A stretch of DNA of 53,620 nt from an uncultured Bacilli bacterium. GTDB lineage: Bacteria; Bacillota_I; Bacilli_A; RF39; UBA660. Positions 16,412-36,541 of the stretch are shown here, piece after piece (within the stretch, counting starts at the first letter, position 1; each line of letters begins with the position of its first letter). The translations under genes and the position numbers were made by a program. Where the stretch lies: the NCBI GenBank assembly GCA_947631035.1, contig CANRJW010000006.1:1-53620 (forward strand), written 5' to 3'. The notes under the pieces are model-generated. The model worked only from the letters and a program-made list of their open reading frames with translations. It had not been told where the DNA came from and did no database searches.

Positions 16412-17284
16412 ATGAAACTAGAAAAGAAATTACTAAACGACGAATATGCTAAAAAGATATTTCGTAGTGAAGATTGTAGGGAGTATGTCGCAAGTGTTAT
16501 AGCAGTGGTGTTAAATTTAAAAAAGGAATATGTCATGGAGAATTTAACCCTCATCAATCCTAATGTAAATATCAATGAGAATGTCAAAGACCAAGAAGTA
16601 GATACTGTATATGATACCAAAGAGAACTATATCAATATCGAAATCAATTATCGTAATAGTAAAGTATCGAAAATTAAGAATAGTGCTTATATAGCTCAGC
16701 TTTATTTAAAACAAGTAAAACCAGGAGAAAAGTATCAAATAAAGCCAATTGTGCAAATCAATATCAATAATTATGACTATTATAAGAAGAATCAATTTAT
16801 CTACCATAGTTATGTAATGGAAGAAGAATACCATATCGTAAGAGACAAAAATATCGAAATATATGATATCAATCTAGATTTATTAAGTAAAATGGATTAT
16901 AATGAGATAGAAAAAATGAATGAAAGGGATTTAAAGTGGCTCTTATATATCTTTGTATGTGAAGATAAAAAGCTACGCAAAGAGGTTTATGGTGGAAGTG
17001 AAATGATGAAGAAAGTCAATAAAAAGGTAGAGGATTATGAACAAGCTTTAGATGCTTATTTATTCTATGACAAGAAAGCACTTGATGAAGCAGGAATGTA
17101 TGAGATGGGTGTTGATGATGGAATGATTCAAGGCGAAAAGAAAAAAGCGATAGAAACAGCTAAGAGATTGTTAAAGATGGGAGTTCTCAATGATAATCAA
17201 ATTGCAGAAGCAACAGGCCTAACCAAAGCCGAAATTAAAAAGATTCAAAAAGAAGAAAACGAATCCGAAAAATCGGAAGAATAG
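16412..17284 (+). CDS. Rpn/YhgA-type PD-(D/E)XK nuclease family protein, copy 1
   Basis: A 290-residue member of the recombination-promoting nuclease (Rpn, formerly called putative transposase) family. The PD-(D/E)XK core is seen as DQEVDTVYDT (D64) and YINIEINYRN (E77, with N79 where many relatives have Q or K). Near residue 245 comes a degenerate helix-turn-helix-like tail (LLKMGVLNDNQIAEATGLT), common in the family. ATG 16412 follows AAAGGAT. It differs from copy 2 mainly after residue 225, where it has a longer GMIQGEKKKAIETAKR linker and an extra acidic C-terminus. Rpn proteins promote RecA-independent recombination in E. coli and may take part in phage defence; the role here is unknown. 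Confidence 0.82.
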   Translation: MKLEKKLLNDEYAKKIFRSEDCREYVASVIAVVLNLKKEYVMENLTLINPNVNINENVKDQEVDTVYDTKENYINIEINYRNSKVSKIKNSAYIAQLYLKQVKPGEKYQIKPIVQININNYDYYKKNQFIYHSYVMEEEYHIVRDKNIEIYDINLDLLSKMDYNEIEKMNERDLKWLLYIFVCEDKKLRKEVYGGSEMMKKVNKKVEDYEQALDAYLFYDKKALDEAGMYEMGVDDGMIQGEKKKAIETAKRLLKMGVLNDNQIAEATGLTKAEIKKIQKEENESEKSEE

Positions 17285-17309
17285 TTTTCTTCTTTTTTAT
17301 ATGAGAAAA

Positions 17310-17336
17310 CCACCAACTATATTGGTGGAATTTTTT
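17310..17336 (+). terminator. Terminator between the Rpn copies
   Basis: 7-bp stem CCACCAA (17310-17316) with TTGGTGG (17322-17328), 5-base loop, then AATTTTTT. Confidence 0.85.
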
Positions 17337-17386
17337 ATCCTTTTTTGTCGAATAATTAGAAGTTTCTTCTAGTTTTGTCGAAAGCC

Positions 17387-17414
17387 TTGAAAGAAAGAAA
17401 AGAACACTTATAAT
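17387..17414 (+). promoter_or_regulatory. Promoter of Rpn copy 2
   Basis: TTGAAA at 17387-17392, 16-bp spacer, TATAAT at 17409-17414, same arrangement as copy 1. Confidence 0.7.
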
Positions 17415-17483
17415 AGCAAGACATATTCGATTTAAAACTTTTCCCGGGGGTTTTGGTCGAATATATGTAAAGGAGAAATTATC

Positions 17484-18311
17484 ATGCTAAAAGAAAAAAA
17501 ATTACTAAACGACGAATATGCTAAAAAGATATTTCGTAGTGAAGATTGCAGAGAGTATGTCGCAAGTGTTATAGCAGTGGTGTTAAATTTAAAAAAGGAA
17601 TATGTCATGGAGAATTTAACCCTCATAAATCCTAATGTAAATATTAATGAGAATGTCAAAGATCAAGAAGTAGATACCGTATATGATACCAAAGAGAACT
17701 ATATCAATATTGAAATCAATTATCGTAATAGTAAAGTATCTAAAATCAAGAATAGTGCTTATATAGCCCAACTTTATTTAAAACAAGTAAAACCAGGAGA
17801 GAAGTATCAAATAAAACCAATTGTCCAAATTAATATCAATAATTATGACTATTATAAAAAGAATAAGTTTATCTATCATAGTTATGTGATGGAAGAAGAA
17901 TACCATATCGTAAGAGACAAAAATATTGAAATATATGATATCAATCTAGATTTATTAAGTAAAATGGATTATAATGAGATAGAGAAAATGAATGAAAGGG
18001 ATTTAAAGTGGCTATTGTATATCTTTGTATGTGAAGATAAAAAGCTACGAAAAGAGGTTTATGGTGGAAGTGAAATGATGAAGAAAGTCAATAAAAAGGT
18101 AGAGGATTATGAACAAGCATTAGATGCTTATTTATTCTATGACAAGAAGGCGCTGGATGATGCAGGAATGTATGAAATGGGTGTTGATGATGGTAAAAAA
18201 GAAACAGCCAAGAAATTATTAAAAATGGGAGTTCTCAATGATAATCAAATTGCAGAAGCAACAGGTCTAACCAAAGACGAAATCGAACAAATTCAAAAAG
18301 AAGAAAAGTAG
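17484..18311 (+). CDS. Rpn/YhgA-type PD-(D/E)XK nuclease family protein, copy 2
   Basis: A 275-residue near-duplicate of the preceding protein. Over the first 225 residues I see only a handful of changes (the extreme N-terminus, one Q to K, one E to D). The tail is shorter: VDDGKKETAKKLLKMG replaces the longer copy 1 linker, and it ends in EIEQIQKEEK. The nuclease residues D64 and E77 equivalents are kept, so both copies should be active or inactive alike. ATG 17484 follows AAAGGAG. Each copy has its own promoter and terminator, so they are separate transcription units rather than an operon. Confidence 0.82.
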   Translation: MLKEKKLLNDEYAKKIFRSEDCREYVASVIAVVLNLKKEYVMENLTLINPNVNINENVKDQEVDTVYDTKENYINIEINYRNSKVSKIKNSAYIAQLYLKQVKPGEKYQIKPIVQININNYDYYKKNKFIYHSYVMEEEYHIVRDKNIEIYDINLDLLSKMDYNEIEKMNERDLKWLLYIFVCEDKKLRKEVYGGSEMMKKVNKKVEDYEQALDAYLFYDKKALDDAGMYEMGVDDGKKETAKKLLKMGVLNDNQIAEATGLTKDEIEQIQKEEK

Positions 18312-18356: not shown

Positions 18357-18689
18357 CTATAATATGATGAGTATAGCTCCAATAAATATCAATGTAGTTC
18401 CTATTATTTTTTTATTTGTTAATTTTTCTTTTAATACTATTTTTGAAATAAACATCGTCCAAACATAGGTAATAGAAGTCAAAGGTAAAACTGTAGAATA
18501 GTTTAAATATTTTAAAATAATAATGTTAAGAATTGCAGATAGCAAATACAAAAATGCTCCAATATATAAATTTTTGTTTTTTAAAAGTGATAATATTGAA
18601 TCATAATTAGATGCCTTTTTTAAAAATAATGAGGCTACAGCTCCAATAAAAGTCATCAGAATTAAAATAACATACATCATTTGCATCAT
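18357..18689 (-). CDS. EamA/SMR-type half-transporter, probable lipid-linked sugar flippase subunit (second)
   Basis: A 110-residue, four-helix membrane protein of the drug/metabolite transporter superfamily. The helices are clear (MMYVILILMTFIGAVASLFL, LYIGAFLYLLSAILNIIIL, TSITYVWTMFIS, IIGTTLIFIGAILIIL). It starts within the stop of the neighbouring half (ATGA overlap), so the two are very likely made together and pair, like ArnE and ArnF, which flip undecaprenyl-phosphate-aminoarabinose. The upstream GT2 of ArnC/GtrB type fits that scheme. It is the last gene of the six-gene minus-strand cluster. Confidence 0.72.
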   Translation of the reverse strand: MMQMMYVILILMTFIGAVASLFLKKASNYDSILSLLKNKNLYIGAFLYLLSAILNIIILKYLNYSTVLPLTSITYVWTMFISKIVLKEKLTNKKIIGTTLIFIGAILIIL

Positions 18690-19024
18690 TCATCACCACA
18701 TCCTATTAAAAGAACACCTAAAAAAATAGTAATAATTCCAATAAATTTAAAAAGTGTAAATTGTTCATGTAATATGGCAGAAGCAAAAATAATTGTAAAA
18801 ATATAATTAGCACTTAGCATTGGTTGCAAAACGGATAAACTGCCAAATTTATAAGCATACAACATAACTAAGGCACCTAACCCATAACTAATAAATCCAA
18901 GCAGTAAGTAAACTAAGTTTCCATTGGCACTTAATTTCCATAACAATTGACCTATGCAAACTAATAGTGAAGAACATAGCATTAAACATATTCCCTTTTT
19001 GTTTTTCTTTAATGAATTTATCAT
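18686..19024 (-). CDS. EamA/SMR-type half-transporter, probable lipid-linked sugar flippase subunit (first)
   Basis: A 112-residue, four-helix membrane protein of the same superfamily as its downstream neighbour (GICLMLCSSLLVCIGQLLWK, LVYLLLGFISYGLGALVMLY, LQPMLSANYIFTIIFAS, FIGIITIFLGVLLIG). The conserved PMLSANYIF helix is typical of DMT/SMR halves. I start it at the ATG ending at 19024, five bases after AAGGAG, not at the GTG six bases upstream. It probably forms a heterodimer with the next protein to move the polyprenyl-phosphate sugar made by the adjacent GT2 across the membrane. Confidence 0.72.
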   Translation of the reverse strand: MINSLKKNKKGICLMLCSSLLVCIGQLLWKLSANGNLVYLLLGFISYGLGALVMLYAYKFGSLSVLQPMLSANYIFTIIFASAILHEQFTLFKFIGIITIFLGVLLIGCGDE

Positions 19025-19033
19025 AAACACTCC

Positions 19034-19960
19034 TTAATTTATTTTATCAATTGACTCAATTAAATACTTTTTGTTTTTTAATATTATATTAATTATTAAA
19101 GATAAATATTTTAAGATAAAAGCAAATAATCCGAAAATACCAAAAAATCCAAAAGATAAAAATAACATAGTGGTGGTCCAACCGGCAATTGGATTACTAC
19201 CTAAAAAAATTATGGTTGTATATATACCAACAATTAAAGTGATGGCCATCATTAAAAATGATAGGAAAATGGATATTCTAAAACCAATATCTGTAAATAA
19301 AAGTAAGGCATCTGTTGCAGTTTTTTCTCGGTCTTTTTTTTGATTTTTGCTCATTGCTTCTTTATCTTTAACACTATCTTTATAGTAAATGGTTTTTACT
19401 TTTAATCCGCAATTTGCATATATGGCTTTTCGATAAGGTATACTTTTGTTAATTGAATTAATGCGATTAATGGCTCTTCTAGATAAAATTCTAAAACTTT
19501 CAGTGCTAATATTATATTGAGTATTTGCAAATTTATTAAAAATGAAATAAAACATTTTTGAAGACAAATATTTTGATTTTTCTGGTGCAGCATTTACTAT
19601 GTCATAACCTTCTAATGAATCCTCATAAATTTTAAAAATGGTTTTTAAGTCATAATCAATAATAGTAGAATCAAATTCATAAACGAAATCTCCTATAGAC
19701 AAATCAACACCAGCATTCATGGAAAGTTCTCTACCTTGGTAGTAACTCATGTTAATAATGGTTATGTTACCATTTGTTTTAGTAGCCACTTTTTTAATAA
19801 CATCCACTGAATTATCAGTAGAAGAATCATTTACACAGATAATTTCAAATTTTAAAAATTTTTTCTCTAATATTTCAATTAGATGATTTAAAAAATTTTC
19901 AATATTTTTTTCACAATTATTAACATAAACAACTGCCGAAATAAAGTTTTTTTCTTTCAT
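19034..19960 (-). CDS. GT2 polyprenyl-phosphate glycosyltransferase (ArnC/GtrB-like)
   Basis: A 308-residue GT-A glycosyltransferase with two C-terminal transmembrane helices (about 229-255 and 264-297). The N-terminal part has ISAVVYVNNCEKNI, the nucleotide-binding ICVNDSSTDNS and a YEFDSTIID acidic motif in place of the usual D-x-D. Such enzymes place one sugar on undecaprenyl phosphate at the cytoplasmic face. ATG at 19960 follows GAGGTG; the preceding FAD-oxidoreductase gene stops only two bases before it. The two EamA halves directly downstream fit as the matching flippase. Confidence 0.83.
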   Translation of the reverse strand: MKEKNFISAVVYVNNCEKNIENFLNHLIEILEKKFLKFEIICVNDSSTDNSVDVIKKVATKTNGNITIINMSYYQGRELSMNAGVDLSIGDFVYEFDSTIIDYDLKTIFKIYEDSLEGYDIVNAAPEKSKYLSSKMFYFIFNKFANTQYNISTESFRILSRRAINRINSINKSIPYRKAIYANCGLKVKTIYYKDSVKDKEAMSKNQKKDREKTATDALLLFTDIGFRISIFLSFLMMAITLIVGIYTTIIFLGSNPIAGWTTTMLFLSFGFFGIFGLFAFILKYLSLIINIILKNKKYLIESIDKIN

Positions 19961-19961
19961 A

Positions 19962-21077
19962 TTATAACACCTCATCTAAATCATATACTGTATTTATTTT
20001 ACCAGATAAAACGCTAATAAACGTTGGATTTTTAGTAAAAGTTTTAATAACCGTTGGACGCGAATCATCAATTTCTGATGCCATTAAAATAGGCTTAATT
20101 GAGAAAAGCGATTTTTCATATTTGATTTTGAAATCATCCTTTAAATATTTTTTAGCTAAATTATACATGTAAGGCCAAGCACTTTCTGGTTTTGCAATAC
20201 ATTTATTACAATTTCCTAAATTTTTAGAACTACAATATCCCTCACTATTGTTTTGACAAGCAAAACTTGGTAATTCATCATAACAAGTTTTATGTGGGGT
20301 AAAGGTTACAGAAGTTAAACTATGATAACCTGTTTTTCCAAAAGGCATAATAGAAAAGAATGGACCATCCATTACCGTTATACCAACATTTTTTAATTCT
20401 TCTGAAACACTACATAAGATGATTTCACATAATTCGTATTTAATTTTAAATTTTTCTAATCCCAGTTTATCTAAAATTTGATTAACACTCGCATAAGTGG
20501 TATTTAGTAAAAATCCAGTTTGATATTTCTTTTTATCTTCCGTAATTATTTCATATAATTGATTTATTTGTTTAATAGTGTCAATTTCTATATTGTATAG
20601 AATTTGCACATTTTCAAATTTACTAATTTCTTTTAAAAAATAATCTCTTAATATCATAGCATCATATGTATATTCTTTTGTTAAAAATGCTCCATCACAC
20701 ATACCTTCTTTAAAATATTTGGTTGTTGCAATTTCATCACATTGAATATTTGCATCTTTACAAAATTTTTTGAATTGTTTAGCATCTGTCCAAGAAAAAT
20801 CCGTTGATGTGGCATAAACTTGATCAAAATCTTTTAATACAGAAAAATCATAGTCTTTATTAAATCTTTCAAAATAACCAGCAGATTTAATAGCAGTAGA
20901 GTAAGAACGTGGGTAATGATATCCCATGTGAACTCTTGCTTGATTCACATAAGTGGCTCTTGAAAATGCTTCACTTTCTTTTTCTAAAACAAGTATTTTT
21001 TCACCTTTTTTTCCACAATGGAGAGCAGAGTATAAACCATATATTCCAGCTCCAATAATAATTTTATCATACTTCAT
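19962..21077 (-). CDS. FAD-dependent oxidoreductase (DAO family) of the lipid-linked sugar cluster
   Basis: A 371-residue flavoprotein. The N-terminal Rossmann motif is IIGAGIYGLYSALHCGKKG (7-25), followed by VLEKESEAFSRAT as in D-amino-acid-oxidase-type enzymes. A loop near residues 269-290 carries four cysteines (ACQNNSEGYCSSKNLGNCNKC), which might bind a metal; this is an observation, not a known motif to me. Homologues of this type sit in surface-polysaccharide loci, but the substrate, perhaps a sugar or sugar-linked amino group, is not known. It begins two bases after the upstream GT2 gene. Confidence 0.75.
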   Translation of the reverse strand: MKYDKIIIGAGIYGLYSALHCGKKGEKILVLEKESEAFSRATYVNQARVHMGYHYPRSYSTAIKSAGYFERFNKDYDFSVLKDFDQVYATSTDFSWTDAKQFKKFCKDANIQCDEIATTKYFKEGMCDGAFLTKEYTYDAMILRDYFLKEISKFENVQILYNIEIDTIKQINQLYEIITEDKKKYQTGFLLNTTYASVNQILDKLGLEKFKIKYELCEIILCSVSEELKNVGITVMDGPFFSIMPFGKTGYHSLTSVTFTPHKTCYDELPSFACQNNSEGYCSSKNLGNCNKCIAKPESAWPYMYNLAKKYLKDDFKIKYEKSLFSIKPILMASEIDDSRPTVIKTFTKNPTFISVLSGKINTVYDLDEVL

Positions 21078-21079
21078 AT

Positions 21080-21889
21080 TTATTCATCCTTTACATCGTA
21101 TTTTCCAAACATATTTCGAAACAAGATTTTAATAAGTTCAAGGTTTCCTTTAAAAAAACTAATTTTTGTAGGAGTTTTTCCAGTTTTCGGATATTCTCGA
21201 GTTACAGGAATTTCACAAACTTTCATTCCGAGTTGTGATGCCTTTACGGATAGAAAAGCCAGAAGTTCATAACTTACAAATATTTCTCGAAAAGGATTTA
21301 CTTTTGGATGTTCTAAATATTTTTTAGAATAGGCTCGATAGGCATTAGTTGTATCAGTAAATCTTTTTCTAGCCGTTAAAGAGATAATAGGGGCATGAAT
21401 AAGTTTAACAGATATTAGTCGAATTAATGGAGTGTTTATTGCTTTTCCTCCTTTTATGAATCTTGAACCTTGTACAAAGTCGTAACCTTCTTCTAATTTC
21501 TCTATAAACCTTGGAACATCTTCTATGCTATCTTTATTATTTCCGTCTATAGTTATTATGCCTTTATATCCTCTTTTTAAACACCACCAAAATCCCATGC
21601 GTAATTGTGTTCCTTGTTTCCCTGGACTTAATTTTGTTAAAACAGTATTTACTTTTAATTTTTCCATTAATGTATCGTTTAAACTATTGTCCGTAGATCC
21701 CCCATCCAAAATGATGATATCGACATATTCGTTAATGTTTGCTTTAAGGGCTCTTTCAAGTTCTTTTTTTATTCTGATTCCTTCATTTATAACAGGTATA
21801 CATACACAATAATCCTGTGTCTTTTTATGATATTCTTTACAATTGAATTCAGGAATTCCTTCTTGTTTTGCAAAATTTGTTACTTTCAT
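21080..21889 (-). CDS. GT2 glycosyltransferase (dolichyl-phosphate mannosyltransferase-like)
   Basis: A 269-residue GT-A enzyme without membrane helices. Key blocks are YCVCIPVINEGIRIKKEL, DIIILDGGSTDNSL and ITIDGNNKDS, the last standing where the metal-binding D-x-D is expected. Its fold is like the DPM1 group that makes polyprenyl-phosphate sugars, so the cluster has two such enzymes. It is packed between the epimerase fusion (3-base gap) and the FAD oxidoreductase. The donor and acceptor are unknown. Confidence 0.8.
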   Translation of the reverse strand: MKVTNFAKQEGIPEFNCKEYHKKTQDYCVCIPVINEGIRIKKELERALKANINEYVDIIILDGGSTDNSLNDTLMEKLKVNTVLTKLSPGKQGTQLRMGFWWCLKRGYKGIITIDGNNKDSIEDVPRFIEKLEEGYDFVQGSRFIKGGKAINTPLIRLISVKLIHAPIISLTARKRFTDTTNAYRAYSKKYLEHPKVNPFREIFVSYELLAFLSVKASQLGMKVCEIPVTREYPKTGKTPTKISFFKGNLELIKILFRNMFGKYDVKDE

Positions 21890-21892
21890 ATA

Positions 21893-23605
21893 CTATAAAC
21901 TCCTAACATAATTGATTGTTTTTTCTATATCTTCTTTATTTTCCTGCATTTTCATTTCAATAGAAACATAATTATTGTATTCTTTTTCTCTTAAAATTGC
22001 AAAAAGTTCTTCGTGTAATTGTTTAGGAGTAATGATTGTTAGATTTGGTTCACTAATGTGTATATGATGAATATATTCTAAATTTTCTCTTAAAATATCT
22101 AAACTTTCTTGATTACTTATAACAGTTCCTAAATCATAGTTTATTTTAATGCTGTCTAAATGAATTTGTTTCACAAAATTTAAAGCCTCAGTAGTTGTGT
22201 TTAAAAAATTTGTATTATAAATAGTAGGGTTTGGTTCAATGGCAATCACAACATTTTTTTCTAGAGCATACTTACCAATTTTAGTAAAAAATTCTATTGC
22301 TTTTGGATAATCTTCTTTATAGTTACCCATATATCTATTTTTAGGAGAACCAAAAACTAAATTTGGACAATGAATTGCCTCGGCAAAATCAATGGCCTTA
22401 TAGGTGTATTCTAATAAAGTATTAAAATTTTCTTCACTTTCAAATATTTTTTCTGTTTTTCCAAACCAAATGGATTGCATAGAGACAATATCAAAATTAT
22501 ATTCTTGTTTTAACTTTTCAATTTTTGTTTTTGCTTCTTCTAAATGATCATAGGGATTCATTTCAATAATTCTTGTTGGAGCAATTTCTAAACCTTGAAT
22601 GTTCTTATCTTTTAAAAAAGCATAAATTTCATTATCCATTTCTTTTGGCCAGGCAATATTGGATATAGCAATTTTTATTGGATGTTTTTCTTTTTCTACA
22701 AATTGTTTTATATCTTCTAAAATAAATTCTTTGTCAAAAATATAGCCATTTTTTCCACCATATAATGAATCATATTTAGTTTTAAAATTATAGTAAGGCA
22801 CAGAGTTATTTATTTCGTTTCTAAAATCTTTTTGTAAAATATAGTGATAAACTTCATGAATAGAAACAGGTTCAGTAGCTAGATTTAAAACTTTGATGTT
22901 ATTTTCTAAAGCTATTATGATATGTTTCCATAAATAAGCCAAATTATAAAATTGAAAAATGCCTCTACTGTCTGTAAAATTTAAGGCACTAAAGTCAATC
23001 GTATTAAAATACTCTTTTAATTTTTTGTTTTCATCTGGTGTTAAGGATTTACATTTATAAAAACCATTATCTTCTTTTTCATAATAACTTTCTATAAAAT
23101 TATTTTTATTTTTTAATTCTATAAATTTTTCTTCTTTTAACATGCTTGGAATAATTTTAATTAGATCATAAATAAAATTCTTTTTAATATTTTTACCATA
23201 TAATCCAGGTAGGTGAACAATTAAATAATCTTGATAATTTTCTTTTACCCATTTTTCTAAATAATAGCGATTTTTTCCGTAAGCTTCTAAATCTTCAGAG
23301 ATAATTTCGGTATCTTCATCAACAAGGTCTGGATTTTTATAAATGTCGATTGTTGAAATAAGGACAATCTTTTTTGGATTAATTTTTTTTATATTTTCTA
23401 TGGCGTTTTCAATTACTTTAAAATCTTCTTCGGGATTTTTATTTGCAATAAATTTTTGGGCTGGAACACCACTATAAACAAGTAAATCCGGATTTTTTCC
23501 AAAGGCTTTTTCAATCTTTTTTGAATTAAACAAGCCATCAAAAGCATATTGGTTGACCAAATTAGAACCCACAAAACCTGTATAACCAACTAAAAAAGTA
23601 GTCAT
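21893..23605 (-). CDS. Fusion of NAD-dependent sugar epimerase/dehydratase and xylose-isomerase-like TIM barrel
   Basis: A 570-residue two-domain protein. Residues 1-300 are a short-chain dehydrogenase/epimerase with the NAD motif GYTGFVGS (8-15) and LISTIDIY; the catalytic YxxxK position reads YGKNR, so lysine is replaced by arginine if the alignment is right. Residues 305-570 match the AP-endonuclease-2/sugar isomerase barrel (IAISNIAWPKE, GLEIAPTRI, VIAIEPNPTIY, INYDLGTVISN, HIHISEPNL), with the metal-ligand-type E, D and H residues present. A fusion of these two activities suggests successive steps in making one unusual sugar. ATG 23605 follows AGGAGG. First gene of the minus-strand cluster. 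Confidence 0.8.
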   Translation of the reverse strand: MTTFLVGYTGFVGSNLVNQYAFDGLFNSKKIEKAFGKNPDLLVYSGVPAQKFIANKNPEEDFKVIENAIENIKKINPKKIVLISTIDIYKNPDLVDEDTEIISEDLEAYGKNRYYLEKWVKENYQDYLIVHLPGLYGKNIKKNFIYDLIKIIPSMLKEEKFIELKNKNNFIESYYEKEDNGFYKCKSLTPDENKKLKEYFNTIDFSALNFTDSRGIFQFYNLAYLWKHIIIALENNIKVLNLATEPVSIHEVYHYILQKDFRNEINNSVPYYNFKTKYDSLYGGKNGYIFDKEFILEDIKQFVEKEKHPIKIAISNIAWPKEMDNEIYAFLKDKNIQGLEIAPTRIIEMNPYDHLEEAKTKIEKLKQEYNFDIVSMQSIWFGKTEKIFESEENFNTLLEYTYKAIDFAEAIHCPNLVFGSPKNRYMGNYKEDYPKAIEFFTKIGKYALEKNVVIAIEPNPTIYNTNFLNTTTEALNFVKQIHLDSIKINYDLGTVISNQESLDILRENLEYIHHIHISEPNLTIITPKQLHEELFAILREKEYNNYVSIEMKMQENKEDIEKTINYVRSL

Positions 23606-23674: not shown

Positions 23675-23699
23675 TTCTATTTTTTGTTAAACTTAAAAA
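23675..23699 (+). repeat. 25-bp target-site duplication, left copy (IS copy 1)
   Basis: The 25 bases here (TTCTATTTTTTG...TTAAAAA) are repeated exactly at 24937-24961 on the other side of the IS. Confidence 0.9.
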
Positions 23700-23899
23700 T
23701 GTGCAATTATAATAGAAATGTGACAGTTATTCCAATTTACCATCAAAATTTCAGGAACCGATAATGTGATGATAAGGCAGAGGCTCAGCAGCGAGTAGCA
23801 AAGCTACAATCTGCCTGAGGCACAGAAGCCTATCACATCATCCCTAAAATTTTAATGTTTTCTCGGCATAAACTTTATCAAAGAAGAAATAATTGCACA
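23700..23899. repeat. 200-nt imperfect palindrome in the IS left end
   Basis: The left-end 11-mer TGTGCAATTAT is matched by ATAATTGCACA at 23889-23899. Between them, further arms pair (CATCAAAATTTCAGG with CCTAAAATTTTAATG; GTGATGATAAGGC with GCCTATCAC; AGGCAGA with TCTGCCT) up to a tip GTAGC-AAA-GCTAC near 23796-23808. The stretch could fold as one long hairpin in DNA or RNA. No protein is supported in these 250 bases before the transposase gene. Confidence 0.75.
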
Positions 23900-23953
23900 G
23901 TGTAGGTTTGTCAAACCAATCCAACTCAATTTTTGGAAAGGAATGAGAAATCT

Positions 23954-24886
23954 ATGAGTAAACCAAAAATTACTCAGCAGATGAGATACCGAGAGTCTCT
24001 CATCAAATACGCCAAAAAACATGGCGTATCCAAAGCTTCTCGTGTTTACAACACGAATAGGCAATACATCTATCGTTGGAGGAAACGTTACAACGGAGAT
24101 GTTCGTTCTCTAGCAAATGAGAGTACAAAACCGAAAAGTCATCCTAATCAGCATACGAAAGAAGAATTAAAGTTAATTCAAGATGTCTTTCGTAAAAACC
24201 AGAATACAGGTTTAGTTGTTCTTTGGGTAAAATTACAACAACGTGGATATTCTAGATCTATTTCTAGTTTATATCATCAGTTAAAAAAATTAAATCTAAA
24301 ATATGTTACTCCAAAGAAACATAAAAAGAAAACAACAAAACCGTATATTCAGATGACTTTTCCTGGTGAACGAGTCCAGATAGATGTAAAAACCGTTCCA
24401 ACAAAATGTATCGTTGGCCAGTTCAAATTTTATCAATATACAGCTATAGATGAATTCTCTCGTTATCGTTACTTAAAAATCTATGAAGAGAAATCAACAT
24501 ACACTTCGTATAAATTTTTATTGGAAGTAATAAAAAGATTTCCATTTAAAATTTATACGATAAGAACGGATAACGGAGTGGAATTCACCAAAAGACTGAT
24601 ATCTAATGATCCAAATGATATTACCATGTTTGAACTTGGCCTTAAAAGAAATGGTATCCATCATGACTTGATCAAACCTTATACACCAAAACATAATGGT
24701 AAGGTTGAACGAAGTCATCGAAAGGATAACGAACGGTTTTATAATTGCCATCGCTTTTATTCATTAGAAGATGCCAATCAACAGTTGCAAGTTTATTTAA
24801 GGGAATATAATAATTTCCCTATGCAACCTCTTAATTGGAAATCTCCTAATGAATTGCTTCGTGATTATTTTAATTTATTAAAATAA
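23954..24886 (+). CDS. DDE transposase of IS copy 1
   Basis: A 310-residue single-frame transposase. The N-terminal part has a helix-turn-helix (YAKKHGVSKASRVYN, then YIYRWRKRY), followed by an integrase core with the acidic triad in VQIDVKTVP (first D), IRTDNGVEF (second D) and HNGKVERSHRKDNE (glutamate). This layout fits the IS481/IS3-like group without a frameshift. ATG 23954 lies a little downstream of GGAAAGGAA; a TTG at 23933 would add seven residues. It is identical in protein sequence to the second copy, with only silent changes seen, so both insertions are recent. Confidence 0.92.
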   Translation: MSKPKITQQMRYRESLIKYAKKHGVSKASRVYNTNRQYIYRWRKRYNGDVRSLANESTKPKSHPNQHTKEELKLIQDVFRKNQNTGLVVLWVKLQQRGYSRSISSLYHQLKKLNLKYVTPKKHKKKTTKPYIQMTFPGERVQIDVKTVPTKCIVGQFKFYQYTAIDEFSRYRYLKIYEEKSTYTSYKFLLEVIKRFPFKIYTIRTDNGVEFTKRLISNDPNDITMFELGLKRNGIHHDLIKPYTPKHNGKVERSHRKDNERFYNCHRFYSLEDANQQLQVYLREYNNFPMQPLNWKSPNELLRDYFNLLK

Positions 24887-24936
24887 TCTATCGTTGGTTT
24901 GTCGTGACTCTGTCACTTTTGTTTGACAAACCTACA

Positions 24937-24961
24937 TTCTATTTTTTGTTAAACTTAAAAA
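24937..24961 (+). repeat. 25-bp target-site duplication, right copy (IS copy 1)
   Basis: Exact repeat of 23675-23699. Confidence 0.9.
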
Positions 24962-24979
24962 AAGTGAGGAAGTATAAAA

Positions 24980-26085
24980 ATGAAAGATGAAGAAATTTTA
25001 GTTAAAGAGAGTCGGGGGGGGGGACTAGAGTATTAATATACGATTGGGTAAGATTGATTGCTATGATTTTAGTTGTTATTGGTCATAGCATGTATTTAAA
25101 TATTACTTCAACTTATGGTAGTATAAATTATACATTGCCTTCAAATATAAGTGATGAATATTTTAGTGGATTATTTACTTTTTTCAAGATGTTACCCACC
25201 TGGATTTATCAGTTCCATATGCCACTTTTTTTTGCTCTATCAGGTGCTGTATTAGCCCTTAAACCTATAAAAAATTTTGACAAATTGTGTAAGGGAAAAT
25301 TTAAGAGATTAATAATACCGTATTTTATTTATGGCTGTTTATTTATGATTCCTATTAAGTATATTAGTGGTTTTTATGTAAATTCTAGTATTTTACCTGC
25401 ACTGAAAGGATTTTTAATTGGAATAGAAGGTAGTCATTTATGGTTTTTACCATCTTTATTTTGGTGCACAATTTCTTTTGCAATTATATATCTTTTGTTC
25501 TCTAAAGTAACTGAGAGTAAATATGTATTGTTGATCGTCACCGGAATAATTCAAATTTTATATAATTATTTGCCTTTTGATGTTTTTTTCTTGAAAATGG
25601 GGTTAAGTTATATATTTTGGTTTGCGTCAGGATTTGTGTTTGAGTTAGAAAGAAAATCTTTACACTATAATTTTAAAAAAAATATGATATATTTTATAAT
25701 AACAATTATATTGGAAATATTAAATTTTAAATATAAGTTTTTTAATTCTTTTTTTGAAATTTTTTGTGGATGTGTTTTTGTATATTTATTAGCAGAAATT
25801 TGTTCATTTCTATTTAAAAAGATAGCAAATAATTCTTTTTGGAAATTGATAATACAAAATTTATTTTTTGTATATTTGTTACATGATCCATTAGAATATT
25901 TAGTTTTAAAGATATTTATGTCACATAATTGGTTAACTACTTCTTATGGGTGTTATTTTTACTTATTTTCTAGAACAATTTTAGTTTTTATGGTTTGCCT
26001 AGTTTTAGGTGTGTTAATAGAAAAATTAAAAAAAATAATTGCAAATTTATTAGGCGATAATTCTTTCCAACAATTAGTGCAATGA
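24980..26085 (+). CDS. Acyltransferase-3 family membrane protein, phase-variable, out of frame here
   Basis: ATG 24980 follows GAGGAAG by 7 bases and reads MKDEEILVKESR into a run of ten G (25014-25023), then stops at 25034-25036 after 18 codons. With eleven G (or eight) the same start runs through TRVLIYDWVRLIAMILVVIG into the whole open frame to 26085, giving 368 residues. That junction is the normal N-terminus of acyltransferase-3 proteins (YDWxRxIAxxxVVxGH, with the catalytic histidine), which move acyl groups onto surface sugars with about ten membrane helices. So the gene is intact apart from the tract and is OFF in this sequence. An internal ATG at 25054 lacks a ribosome site and would lose the first motif. 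Confidence 0.85.
25014..25023 (+). repeat. Poly-G tract (G10), coding phase switch 1
   Basis: Ten G residues in the 12th to 15th codons of the acyltransferase gene. Predicted ON lengths are 8 or 11; the 9- and 10-G forms meet early stops. Confidence 0.9.
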
Positions 26086-27790: not shown

Positions 27791-30026
27791 ATGAAAAAAA
27801 ATAATAATAAGGAAAAGTTGGAAATTGTTTTTTTGCTTCTTTTATTATTTATTCTAGCATTAATTGTGGGAATAAATCGTATTAAAAATTCCGACTTTTC
27901 TCCTACAAATGGCGATTTTCAAAATTATAATCCTGTAAATAGACTCCTTAATGGTCAAATTCCGTATAAAGACTTTGCAGTTTATTTGGGAACTGGGCAT
28001 TTATTTTTAATTTCGGTTGCGTTAATGTTTATTGGGAATACATTTACTAAAAGTTTATTTGTAACCAATGTGCTCACTTTTTTATGCTTTGAATTGTTTA
28101 GTTTTGTAATGAGTTTTTTAATTTTGAAAGATAAAAAGAAATCTTTATATTTAACTTTGGTCTTATCATTATTAAATCTTTGTAGGCCTGTTTTATTAAA
28201 AATTATATTAGATCCTCAAATTTTGGCTTCATTAGATGTTGGTATAGCGCCAGGTTTATCTGCTAGGGCAATAAGAATGGCAGTTATTCCTGCATATATA
28301 TTTTTAATGTATATTGGATTAAAATTATTAAAAAAATCAAAAAATACATTTATTCAAAAACATTTATTGTTTTTACAGAAATTATTTATTGCGTCAATAG
28401 CTGGAATTTCGATTTTATGGAGTAATGATGGTGGAATATCTACTTATATAAGTATTTCTTTTGTCTATTTTCTTGGCCTTTTAAAAAAATATAAGACAAA
28501 TATACTTTCGATAATTAAAAATACTTTTTTATATATTTGTTTAAGTTTTATGTCATTTTTAATAGTTATAACGATTATTACATTAGGTCATCCTTTGGCT
28601 TGGATTAAATTTACATTAGGTGTAAGTTCTTATCAAAGTTGGTATTATTTGAATGCGGTAGATAAGCAAAATGTTAATTTAACTCAAATTAATTCTGAGT
28701 TATTAGTGGCAGTTATGATCTTCTTTGCAGTATTTTATATGGTTAAATTTATAAAAGAAAAAAAATCTAAAAAAAATGAGTTATTTTTTGCTTTATTAAG
28801 CACTTTCTATTTGGCAATCATTGTAAGTATGTATTTATATCAAATAGGTTCTGGTGGAATTTATAAAGATTTTTTGGGGTTAGGCTTATTAGTTACTATA
28901 ATGGCTTTAATTTATAAATATATTAAATTGGAAAACGTGAAAATAAACAGTTTAATAAAAGTTGTAATATTTTTATTTGCTTTTAACACAATTGGCTTAA
29001 ATGTTAGAAATGAAATAAAAAGTTTTAAAAATAGAGATGAAAATAAATATGTTGAGGAATTAGGCGGCTATCTTTCAAATGGTGATACGATAAATTATGT
29101 TATTGATAGATTAAAAGATGAAAAAATATTTTCGGTTTATGCATCAGCAATAAATGCTGCTACACATCAATTTCAACCGACAGGTATAGATTATATAATT
29201 CATGCTTTAGGAGATAAACAACGTGAAGAATACATGAATGTTTTTAGAACTGGTGATTTTAAATATGTTGAAGATTTAGATACGAGTTATTCTTTATATA
29301 ATTGGATAAGTTTTGCTAATTGGTTTTTTTATCGAGAAATGTATAAAAATTATAAACCTTGTTTCGGGGGGGGGGTATAATGTGTTCTATGAAAGAAAAT
29401 TAGATAGTGAAAGAGATGAAAATATTATTGATTTAGATGAATTAGAAATAGACGTTAAAAGAATCACAACATATAAATATGTAATTCATGTGAAAAATAA
29501 TAATAAATTTAAAAATGGTATAGTAGATTTAAAAGTATCTTATCAATCCCACTTTTTAAAAACTTTCTTTAATACTTTGGACATAAAGAAGTATGTTTTT
29601 GTAAAAGATATAAATATAGATAATATGTATCCGGGAGGATTTAATAATTTCAACATTCCAGTAACTTCAAATGAGTATTATTTACCAATTAACGTAATAA
29701 ATGGTGAAGGGGAAATTGAAATATATTCTTATCCATATGAAAATACTAAACTTGACATACAGAATGTTGAAATTGTTGGAATGTATACTGATAGATATAG
29801 ATATATACATGGTAACCCGGCTAAATATGATGAGAATAAAATTTATATAGATAATACCACTGAAAATTCGGTTATTATTGAAGGTGTAACAAAAGTTAAA
29901 ATGGACAATCATAGCGCAGTTATAAGTGATGTTGAAAAAAATGATAAATATATTATCTTAAAAAGTAACGATGATTTGTCTTATTTTCAATATCCTAATT
30001 TTTTTGAAATCATAAAAGGAAAATAG
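27791..30026 (+). CDS. GT-C-like membrane protein, phase-variable, split by a poly-G tract
   Basis: The frame from ATG 27791 (AGGGGAC upstream) gives 529 residues and stops at 29378-29380, just after ten G residues (29366-29375). The sequence beyond is open to 30026 in another frame. With nine or twelve G the two parts join to 744 residues, and the product then aligns without a gap to the intact paralogue at 32923: PCFGGGYNVF against PVFTTDYNVF. The membrane part has the loop SPTNGDFQNYNPVNRLLNGQ then IPYKDFAVYLGTGH, resembling the first loop of GT-C transferases; the C-terminal 215 residues are a soluble beta-rich domain. In this sequence the domain is cut off (OFF or truncated form). Confidence 0.85.
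29366..29375 (+). repeat. Poly-G tract (G10), coding phase switch 2
   Basis: Ten G residues at codons 526-528 of the preceding gene. Nine or twelve G restore the long frame. The paralogue has unrelated bases (ACTACAGAT, encoding TTD) at this position. Confidence 0.9.
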
Positions 30027-32876: not shown

Positions 32877-32905
32877 TTGACGGGGGGGGGGGATAATGTT
32901 ATAAT
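32877..32905 (+). promoter_or_regulatory. Promoter with poly-G spacer, transcriptional phase switch 3
   Basis: -35 TTGACG (32877-32882) and extended -10 TGT-TATAAT (hexamer 32900-32905) are separated by exactly 17 bp. Eleven G residues (32882-32892) make the last base of the -35 and ten bases of the spacer. Any slippage would move the spacing away from the optimum. As sequenced, the promoter is at its ON length. Confidence 0.85.
32882..32892 (+). repeat. Poly-G tract (G11) in a promoter spacer
   Basis: Eleven consecutive G residues between two AT-rich flanks, 30 bases ahead of the start codon at 32923. Confidence 0.95.
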
Positions 32906-32922: not shown

Positions 32923-35205
32923 ATGAATTTCAATTTATCAAATAAGTTAACTCAAATAAAAAGTAAAAAAATATTATTTCCAATTGCAATGGTGTTAATT
33001 TTAGTTGTTCTTGCTATAATTGTAGGCATTGACAGAATGACATTATCGGATTTTGTTCCTATCAATGGTGATTTTCAAAATTATAATCCAGTGCGTAGAT
33101 TTCTAAATGGTCAAATTCCTTTTAAAGATTTTGGAGTTTATTTAGGAACTGGTCATTTACTATTATTATCTTTTTTTCAAATCATTTTTGGATTTATTTT
33201 TGGAAATAATTTCACTACTAGTTTAATGGTTAGTAATATGGTTACGTTTCTTGCTTTTGAGATAACTGTTTTTTTTCTAAGTTTTTTGATAACGAAAAGT
33301 AAAAAGGGCTCTTTTTATATTACGTTAACTTTTGCTATTATCAATATCACTAGACCAGAGTTTTTGGTAAACAACATTGATGATGTAATTTTAAGTGCTT
33401 TGGATTTTGGATTAAAATCCGGAAATTCTGCAAGATTAATTAGGATTATTGTTGCACCTTTATCAGCAATATTATTGTATTACGTAATCAATAAAATAAA
33501 TACAGTTTTAACTACAACTTCAAAAAAGATATTTCTTTCAAAAATTGTATTTGCTATTATTGGAGGAATATGTATTTTATGGAGCAATGATGGAGGGGTT
33601 GCTACTTATTTGGCTATATCATTTGTATATTTTCTAATTTTAATAAAAGAACATAAAAAAAATGTACTTCTTATCTTGAGAGATGTATTGATGTATATTG
33701 TGATAAGTATAATTTCTTTTTTGGCAGTTTTAGTTATTATTACTCGTGGTAATGTTTTGTCATGGTTTAATTTTACGACACAAATAGGTTCTTATCAAAA
33801 ATGGTATTATTTTGAAGCGCCTGCTAAAATGAATATTTCACTATTAAATGTTGATTTAAATGTTTATAATATAATATTAATTATCGTTTCGAGTTATTAT
33901 GTTTATTTACTTTTTAAATCCAAGGATAAAAAATCAATTTTTAATTATGCATTAATACTTATTATTGTTTTATCGTCTATAATTTCTTGCTATTTTTATC
34001 AACTTTTTGCTGGAAGAATATCAAGAGATATGCTAATATTGGTTTTCTTAATTGTAATATTTAGTTACATTTATAAAATTTTTTACAGTATTATAAATAA
34101 TACTCATAACCGAACTTTTATTTTTAATGTTGGAAAAGGGTTTGCAATTATTTGCGCAAGTGCTGTAATAATTAATAGATGTGGACTTATTATTAATAAC
34201 ATAAAAAATAGAAATTTAAATAATGAAATTATTTATATAAAAGAATTGGACGGATATTTTTCAGAATATGGTGCTAGTATTAAAAATGCGATTGATGAAA
34301 TTGAGGGTAAAAAAATTTTTTCAACCTATGCATCTGCATTAGAAGCGGCTACAAATCAATTTCAACCTACCGGTATTGATTATATTATACATTGTATGGG
34401 CGATAAGCAAAGACAAGAATATTTAAAAATTTTTAATCAAGGCGATTTTGATTATGTTACAACAGTGGATAAACAAAATGTATATTCTAGTAAATGGATA
34501 ATTAATGCAAATTGGTTTTTTTATCGTGAATTATATAAAAATTATAAGCCTGTGTTTACTACAGATTATAATGTTTTTTGGGAAAAAAGCGACGAAGTAC
34601 CTATTGCAGATCAAAATGTTGAGGTTAAACAAAGTAAGGCCAATGATCATCAATATAATATAACTGTATCAACGGATGATAAAACTTTTTCTGGGATGGT
34701 AGATTTAAAATTGTCATATGATAGTACCTTTAAAAGAAGTTTTTTTAAAAGTTTGGATTTAAATAAATATGTTTATGTTAAAGATATAACGGGTAAAACG
34801 ATTTTAGAAGATCAAGATGAAATTATTAATTTTAATATTCCTAATAATTCAACTGAATATTATATACCGGTAACTGTTATTAACGGAGTTGGTAAGATAC
34901 AAATTGTAAGTTATCCGTTAAATAATACGAAGTTAAACATTGATAATGTAGAGGTAGTAGACTCATATGGTGGATTATTTAAATATGCTGTATTAAGTAA
35001 AAATAAAAAAATTAGTAATAATACTTTATATGTTGACAATACATTAGAAAATCAAGTTATTTTAAATGGTGTAAAATTCATAAAAATCGGAGATATTGAA
35101 CAAGAAATTATAGGCTATAATGAAACTGATGATTATATAGAGTTAAAAGTTGAAAAAAATGCATCCAAGTTTAAGTATCCTAATTATTTCGAAGTAATAA
35201 AATAG
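32923..35205 (+). CDS. GT-C-like membrane protein, intact paralogue under a poly-G promoter
   Basis: A 760-residue protein closely related along its whole length to the split gene at 27791. The first loop reads VPINGDFQNYNPVRRFLNGQ then IPFKDFGVYLGTGH; shared later blocks include ILWSNDGG, FQPTGIDYIIH and NWFFYRELYKNYKP. About eleven membrane helices fill residues 15-420; a soluble beta-rich C-terminal domain spans about 540-760. The coding region has no poly-G tract; instead its promoter carries one. ATG 32923 has GGTG seven bases upstream. The chemistry (sugar transfer from a polyprenyl phosphate) is inferred from the GT-C-like loop only. Confidence 0.75.
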   Translation: MNFNLSNKLTQIKSKKILFPIAMVLILVVLAIIVGIDRMTLSDFVPINGDFQNYNPVRRFLNGQIPFKDFGVYLGTGHLLLLSFFQIIFGFIFGNNFTTSLMVSNMVTFLAFEITVFFLSFLITKSKKGSFYITLTFAIINITRPEFLVNNIDDVILSALDFGLKSGNSARLIRIIVAPLSAILLYYVINKINTVLTTTSKKIFLSKIVFAIIGGICILWSNDGGVATYLAISFVYFLILIKEHKKNVLLILRDVLMYIVISIISFLAVLVIITRGNVLSWFNFTTQIGSYQKWYYFEAPAKMNISLLNVDLNVYNIILIIVSSYYVYLLFKSKDKKSIFNYALILIIVLSSIISCYFYQLFAGRISRDMLILVFLIVIFSYIYKIFYSIINNTHNRTFIFNVGKGFAIICASAVIINRCGLIINNIKNRNLNNEIIYIKELDGYFSEYGASIKNAIDEIEGKKIFSTYASALEAATNQFQPTGIDYIIHCMGDKQRQEYLKIFNQGDFDYVTTVDKQNVYSSKWIINANWFFYRELYKNYKPVFTTDYNVFWEKSDEVPIADQNVEVKQSKANDHQYNITVSTDDKTFSGMVDLKLSYDSTFKRSFFKSLDLNKYVYVKDITGKTILEDQDEIINFNIPNNSTEYYIPVTVINGVGKIQIVSYPLNNTKLNIDNVEVVDSYGGLFKYAVLSKNKKISNNTLYVDNTLENQVILNGVKFIKIGDIEQEIIGYNETDDYIELKVEKNASKFKYPNYFEVIK

Positions 35206-35279: not shown

Positions 35280-36516
35280 TGTAGGTTTGTCAAACAAAAG
35301 TGACAGAGTCACGACAAACCAACGATAGATTATTTTAATAAATTAAAATAATCACGAAGCAATTCATTAGGAGATTTCCAATTAAGAGGTTGCATAGGGA
35401 AATTATTATATTCCCTTAAATAAACTTGCAACTGTTGATTGGCATCTTCTAATGAATAAAAGCGATGGCAATTATAAAACCGTTCATTATCCTTTCGATG
35501 ACTTCGTTCAACCTTACCATTATGTTTTGGTGTATAAGGTTTGATCAAGTCATGATGGATACCATTTCTTTTAAGGCCAAGTTCAAACATGGTAATATCA
35601 TTTGGATCATTAGATATCAGTCTTTTGGTGAATTCCACTCCGTTATCCGTTCTTATCGTATAAATTTTAAATGGAAATCTTTTTATTACTTCCAATAAAA
35701 ATTTATACGAAGTGTATGTTGATTTCTCTTCATAGATTTTTAAGTAACGATAACGAGAGAATTCATCTATAGCTGTATATTGATAAAATTTGAACTGGCC
35801 AACGATACATTTTGTTGGAACGGTTTTTACATCTATCTGGACTCGTTCACCAGGAAAAGTCATCTGAATATACGGTTTTGTTGTTTTCTTTTTATGTTTC
35901 TTTGGAGTAACATATTTTAGATTTAATTTTTTTAACTGATGATATAAACTAGAAATAGATCTAGAATATCCACGTTGTTGTAATTTTACCCAAAGAACAA
36001 CTAAACCTGTATTCTGGTTTTTACGAAAGACATCTTGAATTAACTTTAATTCTTCTTTCGTATGCTGATTAGGATGACTTTTCGGTTTTGTACTCTCATT
36101 TGCTAGAGAACGAACATCTCCGTTGTAACGTTTCCTCCAACGATAGATGTATTGCCTATTCGTGTTGTAAACACGAGAAGCTTTGGATACGCCATGTTTT
36201 TTGGCGTATTTGATGAGAGACTCTCGGTATCTCATCTGCTGAGTAATTTTTGGTTTACTCATAGATTTCTCATTCCTTTCCAAAAATTGAGTTGGATTGG
36301 TTTGACAAACCTACACTGTGCAATTATTTCTTCTTTGATAAAGTTTATGCCGAGAAAACATTAAAATTTTAGGGATGATGTGATAGGCTTCTGTGCCTCA
36401 GGCAGATTGTAGCTTTGCTACTCGCTGCTGAGCCTCTGCCTTATTATCACATTATCGGTCCCTGAAATTTTGATGGTAAATTGGAATAACTGTCACATTT
36501 CTATTATAATTGCACA
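35280..36516 (-). mobile_element. Insertion sequence copy 2 (1,237 bp, inverted relative to copy 1)
   Basis: Same length and ends as copy 1: on the plus strand it opens with TGTAGGTTTGTCAAAC and closes with ATAATTGCACA. It has its own, different 25-bp target duplication, so it arrived by a separate transposition. A few substitutions against copy 1 are visible in the palindromic left end (for example AGGGACCG for AGGAACCG) and one silent change in the transposase gene. It separates the intact GT-C paralogue from the RgpF-like gene and leaves the latter's promoter untouched. The palindrome lies at 36317-36516. Confidence 0.9.
35330..36262 (-). CDS. DDE transposase of IS copy 2
   Basis: 310 residues, identical in protein sequence to the transposase of copy 1, with the same helix-turn-helix and D-D-E core. 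The start is the ATG ending at 36262, matching the choice for copy 1. It faces away from the polysaccharide locus. Since both copies are whole, either can supply transposase in trans. Confidence 0.92.
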   Translation of the reverse strand: MSKPKITQQMRYRESLIKYAKKHGVSKASRVYNTNRQYIYRWRKRYNGDVRSLANESTKPKSHPNQHTKEELKLIQDVFRKNQNTGLVVLWVKLQQRGYSRSISSLYHQLKKLNLKYVTPKKHKKKTTKPYIQMTFPGERVQIDVKTVPTKCIVGQFKFYQYTAIDEFSRYRYLKIYEEKSTYTSYKFLLEVIKRFPFKIYTIRTDNGVEFTKRLISNDPNDITMFELGLKRNGIHHDLIKPYTPKHNGKVERSHRKDNERFYNCHRFYSLEDANQQLQVYLREYNNFPMQPLNWKSPNELLRDYFNLLK

Positions 36517-36541
36517 TTATATAAAAATATAAAATTGTTGT
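36517..36541 (+). repeat. 25-bp target-site duplication, right copy (IS copy 2)
   Basis: Exact repeat of 35255-35279; the promoter of the next gene begins five bases further on. Confidence 0.9.

Follow-up and report, generated by a model that had tools for sequence, protein, structure and literature searches.

A G-tract near the start of an acyltransferase-3 gene in an uncultured Bacilli bacterium is a probable slipped-strand switch, one of many such tracts in the genome

The acyltransferase-3 (AT3) gene described here is put out of frame by a run of ten G just behind its start, and this run is very likely a slipped-strand (simple-sequence-repeat) contingency switch in the coding sequence, the enzyme made in the ON state most likely acylating a surface glycan. 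The window, by which we mean the whole 53,620-nucleotide stretch analysed, is one contig (C6) of a draft genome (G000; 1.43 Mb in 82 contigs, 92.7% complete). In the mechanism that we propose, polymerase slippage in living cells would alter the number of G in the tract, and the amount of protein would follow. With 8 or 11 G the leader would read on into the membrane acyltransferase (ON); with 9, 10 or 12 G translation would end within about 20 codons (OFF), the state predicted for the assembled genome. The ON enzyme would most likely move an acyl group, probably acetyl, to a sugar of a surface glycan from the adjacent gene cluster, and the AT3 locus would be one of a genome-wide poly-G system.

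Results

Anatomy and reading frames of the AT3 gene

The window sequence has the run of ten G exactly where the initial annotation had placed it (Table 1). That annotation had described a start with a good ribosome-binding site (RBS), read for 18 codons and stopped after the run, and this description holds: the ATG at 24980 follows AGTGAGG, and with ten G its frame encodes MKDEEILVKESRGGGLEY, 18 codons ended by a stop at 25034-25036. Scanning tract length in silico gave products of 367 amino acids for 8 G, 15 for 9, 18 for 10, 368 for 11 and 16 for 12, which bears out the proposal that 8 or 11 G restore a long protein. The assignment of the gene to AT3 is likewise correct, since the frame after the tract (P0001) matches PF01757 with 73 bits against a curated cut-off of 31, over profile positions 10-315 of 326.

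Table 1. Features of the AT3 locus, the rest of the window and three in-frame members of the leader-plus-tract family. Positions are those of the window unless a locus is named.
Feature	Position	Strand	Basis and remarks
Glycan-type cluster	18357..23605	-	Two EamA halves, GT2, FAD oxidoreductase, GT2, epimerase/TIM-barrel fusion; Pfam and synteny
Insertion sequence (IS), integrase-type transposase (ORF 23933-24886), left copy	23698..24936	+	rve domains; ends 44 bp before ATG
Extended -10-like element, candidate	24947..24955	+	TGTTAAACT, by eye; matching TGCTAAACT in G072 (alignment)
Ribosome-binding site AGTGAGG	24963..24969	+	Ahead of ATG 24980; sequence
Leader MKDEEILVKES	24980..25013	+	Precedes tract; 33/34 nt as in G072
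G10 tract	25014..25023	+	OFF length; 8 or 11 in frame; sequence and length scan
Acyltransferase-3 body, 353 aa (P0001)	25024..26085	+	PF01757 and translation; Arg10 codon 25051-25053, His21 codon 25084-25086
Second tract, G10	29366..29375	+	Cuts multi-TM ORF 27791-29380; with 9 or 12 G the frame runs on to 30026
Third tract, G11 (32882-32892), in TTGACG-17-TATAAT	32877..32905	+	Ahead of ORF 32923-35205; 11/12 match with TG
Same IS, right inverted copy	35280..36518	-	99.76% identical to left copy
In-frame family copies	L049:98-2074, L059:521-2068, L087:30-1679	-, -, +	Frame check

G-tracts in the window, the genome and the genus

The AT3 tract is far beyond chance, and it is not unique. Counts of G runs in the window fall from 5,454 of length 1 to a single run of length 6; lengths 7-9 are absent, and there are two runs of 10 and one of 11. 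A first-order model predicts 0.004 runs of at least ten on both strands, against three seen, and dinucleotide shuffles gave 0.17 eight-G matches against 10 observed. Across the draft genome there are 60 runs of at least eight G (about 2.9 expected), comprising 50 of 10, five of 11, four of 9 and one of 8. Runs of this length occur in all 22 genomes of the genus, from 2 to 80 per genome, and runs of at least nine G in 27 of 58 genomes sampled from the family.

The preponderance of G10 is more suggestive of a mutational set-point than of selection for a single state, because the mode of 10 is common to tracts whose ON length is 8 or 11, 9 or 12, or 10; the tracts in two DUF285 proteins (L054, L065) are OFF, and that in an InlB-repeat protein (L071) is ON at 10. 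The 50 of 60 tracts at exactly G10 could also mean low mutability, which counts against a switch. Lengths in relatives were four G10, three G9 and two G11 in G072 (9 distinct loci of 19 tracts), five G10, four G9 and one G8 in G066 (10 loci of 20 tracts), and ten G8 in G004 (10 loci of 26), this last set being mostly one repeated element with fixed flanks that may be something other than a switch tract. The repeated element (at the G004 loci among L111-L138) lies a little upstream of TATAAT-like sites.

The other two tracts of the window have different settings. The second cuts short the 529-amino-acid product of ORF 27791, which has no Pfam match. The alignment with an intact paralogue of 760 amino acids (32923-35205) extends to either side of the run, where the paralogue has TTD in place of the three glycines (GGG); nine G therefore keeps the frame. 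The third tract makes up most of the 17-bp spacer between TTGACG and TATAAT ahead of this paralogue. Its placement in a promoter spacer is suggestive, and we put it no higher because the region has no excess of promoter-like matches over shuffled sequence (67 observed, 72.8 in shuffles) and a site matching 12/12 is found 202 bases further upstream. By eye, like arrangements are found at L072 and L084 (TTGACT-18-TATAAT) and at L116 of G072 (TTGACA-18-TATAAT). Elsewhere in the genome, phage-like genes (L088:1265-2067(-), L042:999-2000(-), L063 and L064) also have tracts, in their short leaders or 5′ regions; these genes encode an Mtd_N (major tropism determinant) protein, a relative with DUF6273 and a collagen-type tail protein, and the remaining one follows a tRNA.

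Leader and tract in relatives

Searches with the AT3 protein gave matches in 4 of the 22 genus genomes and in 12 of 291 genomes sampled from the family, the own genome being counted in both. Three clear orthologues were found outside it. The first, in the same genus (G072), is 51% identical at the amino-acid level; its nucleotide identity to the gene here is 23/25 over 24955-24979, 33/34 over the leader and 637/990 over the body. The G072 leader is followed by nine G, which are in frame (MKDDEILVKESQGGGSRVLIYDWVR), and the long frame starts at the ATG before the tract. Among the 22 genus genomes this leader occurs in G000 and G072 only. The second orthologue, in another genus (G004; 56% identity), has G8 at the same position and a frame that is open through the alignable leader; there is no in-frame ATG, and the contig ends 116 bases upstream. 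The third, in a further genus (G282; 52%), has no tract and an ordinary ATG after GGAGG. The remaining AT3 matches are distant PF01757 proteins, and the nine such loci from the family (L102-L110) have no run of seven or more G. A scan of a collection of genome contigs gave 11 distant PF01757 loci, none of which entered the comparison, and a scan of viral contigs with the leader, for other strains, gave no match. Another relative, G066, has an AT3-type gene (L099:1582-2633(-)) whose G9 lies in the middle of the gene and which the assembly shows out of frame (tblastn 2409 to 2388; stops).

From G9 in G072 and G8 in G004 it follows that two more species at least have the tract, with lengths other than 10. 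Both length and frame differ between relatives, G10 being out of frame here and G9 in frame in G072, a comparison of species, not of strains. A fixed tract, which the initial annotation had named as evidence against its proposal, is thereby excluded across species (G10, G9, G8). The switch itself, as first proposed, is well supported by the leader, RBS and tract of G072 at an in-frame length, by G8 in G004 and by tracts throughout the genome and the genus.

It could be argued that a homopolymer frameshift has made the gene a fixed pseudogene, or that the gene is intact and the assembled tract length is off by one, given that we have a single draft assembly in 82 contigs and that an IS has inserted 44 bp ahead of the start. 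We consider this unlikely. Translation of the remaining 353 codons showed no further lesion, and the residues invariant among orthologues are kept; the leader is nearly unchanged relative to G072, where the orthologue with the same leader is in frame; and long G runs are found in every one of the 22 genus genomes.

A paralogous family of 47 genes with one leader and tract

Outside the window, 47 of the 60 tracts of the genome share one leader and belong to one paralogous family (L043-L091), probably of surface proteins. The tract starts 47 bases past an RBS-led ATG in those members whose sequence includes the start, and one more tract, L062:19 at the end of a contig, seems to mark a member whose leader is cut off. 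Behind the tract, 42 of the 47 have a hydrophobic segment. The C-terminal modules are of several types, exchanged and often hypervariable, and a GDATGExGPF-like region is present in 27 of 47; weak FGE-sulfatase similarity was seen in 5 of the 23 members scanned and is below the curated cut-off in the one shown. Searched as a profile against the PDB, the family alignment had a single weak match (5vf4, E 0.007), and a structure model of a family protein had a mean pLDDT of 29. The leader pattern of this family is found in 4 of the 22 genus genomes.

Tract lengths in the family are 39 G10, 4 G9, 3 G11 and 1 G8. Because the in-frame lengths are 9 and 12, the assembly has 4 of 47 genes ON, a share below one third (p 1.3e-4, assuming an independence that paralogues do not have). 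A diversity-generating retroelement as the source of the variability is unsupported: reverse transcriptase (PF00078) was absent from the own genome at 92.7% completeness and was found in 3 of 14 genomes in the control set, and the part of the family alignment listed shows, by eye, many synonymous third-position differences too.

Ten G in a row could plausibly act as a slippery site, and most tracts share the length 10, as might be expected if the DNA were stable and transcriptional or ribosomal slippage on G10 gave a low, constant level of enzyme. Lengths vary, however, both between orthologues and between the same-leader paralogues counted above, and hence the DNA itself changes. As a replacement for DNA slippage this explanation is decidedly unlikely; the two processes could act alongside each other.

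The acyltransferase and its neighbourhood

Of the AT3 sequence motifs, R-X10-H is present as Arg10 and His21 of P0001 and is invariant across the four orthologues. The account of these motifs in PMC9833829 places R-X10-H in TMH1, terms its Arg absolutely conserved among AT3 proteins, and calls an RXXR at the cytoplasmic face of TMH3 'highly conserved'. At the latter position P0001 has K92-x-K94-R95, that is K-XX-R, also invariant across the four orthologues. Hydropathy analysis gave six segments. A structure model (mean pLDDT 64) found no related fold in a PDB search and phmmer found no PDB relative of the protein; these results neither help nor hurt. Against the proposed explanation stand this K-XX-R in place of RXXR, the tract-less gene of G282 and the missing ATG in the read-through frame of G004, and fold prediction and search lent it no support.

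Translation from the TTG at 25054 (the Leu11 codon of P0001) or another start after the tract, in which case the enzyme would always be made and the tract would be a 5′ UTR feature, is very improbable: although a 343-codon open frame starts at this TTG, its product would lack the invariant Arg of R-X10-H, no RBS is seen by eye upstream of 25054, and the conserved leader of G072 is in frame with the enzyme. A true start at 25054, the other ground for doubt named at the outset, thus looks unlikely because that Arg would be dropped.

The AT3 gene stands beside the glycan-type cluster. In G072 it follows the same six genes, 87-96% identical, and in G282 it lies inside the operon, between homologues of the GT2 gene at 21080 (72%) and the FAD gene at 19962 (76%). 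This repeated linkage fits acyl transfer to the glycan of the cluster, and acyl decoration of that glycan is suggested by AT3 family membership together with the glycan-gene context. The IS in G000 has entered between the cluster and the AT3 gene; G072 has no IS at the site. Its two inverted copies flank an island made up of the AT3 gene and four multi-TM genes. Also in the window are part of an rRNA operon, at its start, and two Rpn-family (recombination-promoting nuclease) genes in tandem (16412-18311). The 23S of this operon is about 79% identical to the best plasmid-borne records, which are mostly from Bacilli, and this, together with the LCP-type glycopolymer ligase and RgpF genes of the genome, points to a Bacillota.

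Discussion

Slippage at such tracts probably lets the cells turn surface features ON and OFF, since the run is out of frame here, has an in-frame counterpart of another length in a relative, and is one of about 60 in the genome. More tentatively, the leader and G-tract may form a conserved switch module whose payload is exchanged, with a set-point that is mostly OFF and a random subset of products shown by each cell. In the comparison of G000 with G072, proteins encoded nearby show 87-96% identity and the leader 97% (nucleotides), against 51% for the AT3 enzyme. Likewise, the dozens of surface-protein genes have their leader and tract in common but differ in the C-terminal modules behind them. 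Under such an arrangement, tracts would rest near a set-point (G10 here), and the distance from ATG to tract would determine which state, mostly OFF, it gives. From a large repertoire of surface proteins and glycan decorations, any one cell would thus display a small, randomly drawn part.

If sequencing reads confirm the switching, these small-genome bacteria would have a contingency system at least the size of that of Campylobacter. Its targets would be surface glycans, surface proteins by the dozen and apparently phage genes, and it would bear on coexistence with phages and host immunity. What is unusual is the genus-wide repertoire of G-tracts in this Bacillota lineage, not the single gene. 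Our searches of the PMC literature returned, in the text retrieved, no account of phase variation by poly-G tracts in such bacteria.

AT3 genes switched by poly-G are known, and the gene described here is therefore a further member of that kind, a Bacillota addition to the phase-variable surface O-acyltransferases. The closest likeness is to Neisseria pglI, described in PMC9558356 as an AT3-SGNH protein for O-acetylation of the pilin glycan, and for which PMC5953494 gives a genic poly-G tract of 9-15 G with phase variation. Both are AT3 enzymes for a glycan with a tract inside the gene; pglI, however, is an AT3-SGNH fusion of a Gram-negative organism acting on pilin glycan, whereas here a stand-alone AT3 gene of a Bacillota lies beside a glycan cluster. 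The same account (PMC9558356) lists Haemophilus influenzae oafA and Salmonella oafB as phase-variable AT3 genes for acetylation of surface sugars, but their targets are LOS or O-antigen, and the oafB switch is described there as epigenetic, not poly-G. A G-tract in a gut Gram-positive has a parallel in the pilus of Bifidobacterium breve, a surface structure that, as described in PMC9187656, depends on replication slippage at an intragenic G-tract; that case concerns two actinobacterial pilus loci, neither an acyltransferase nor a gene family dozens strong. In scale, the nearest comparison is Campylobacter jejuni, likewise a small AT-rich genome with many G-tracts, for which PMC4965091 reports 29 polyG/C loci of seven or more in NCTC11168. 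C. jejuni belongs to another phylum, however, and the genome studied here has 60 runs of at least eight, of which 47 fall in a single paralogous family that has one leader in common.
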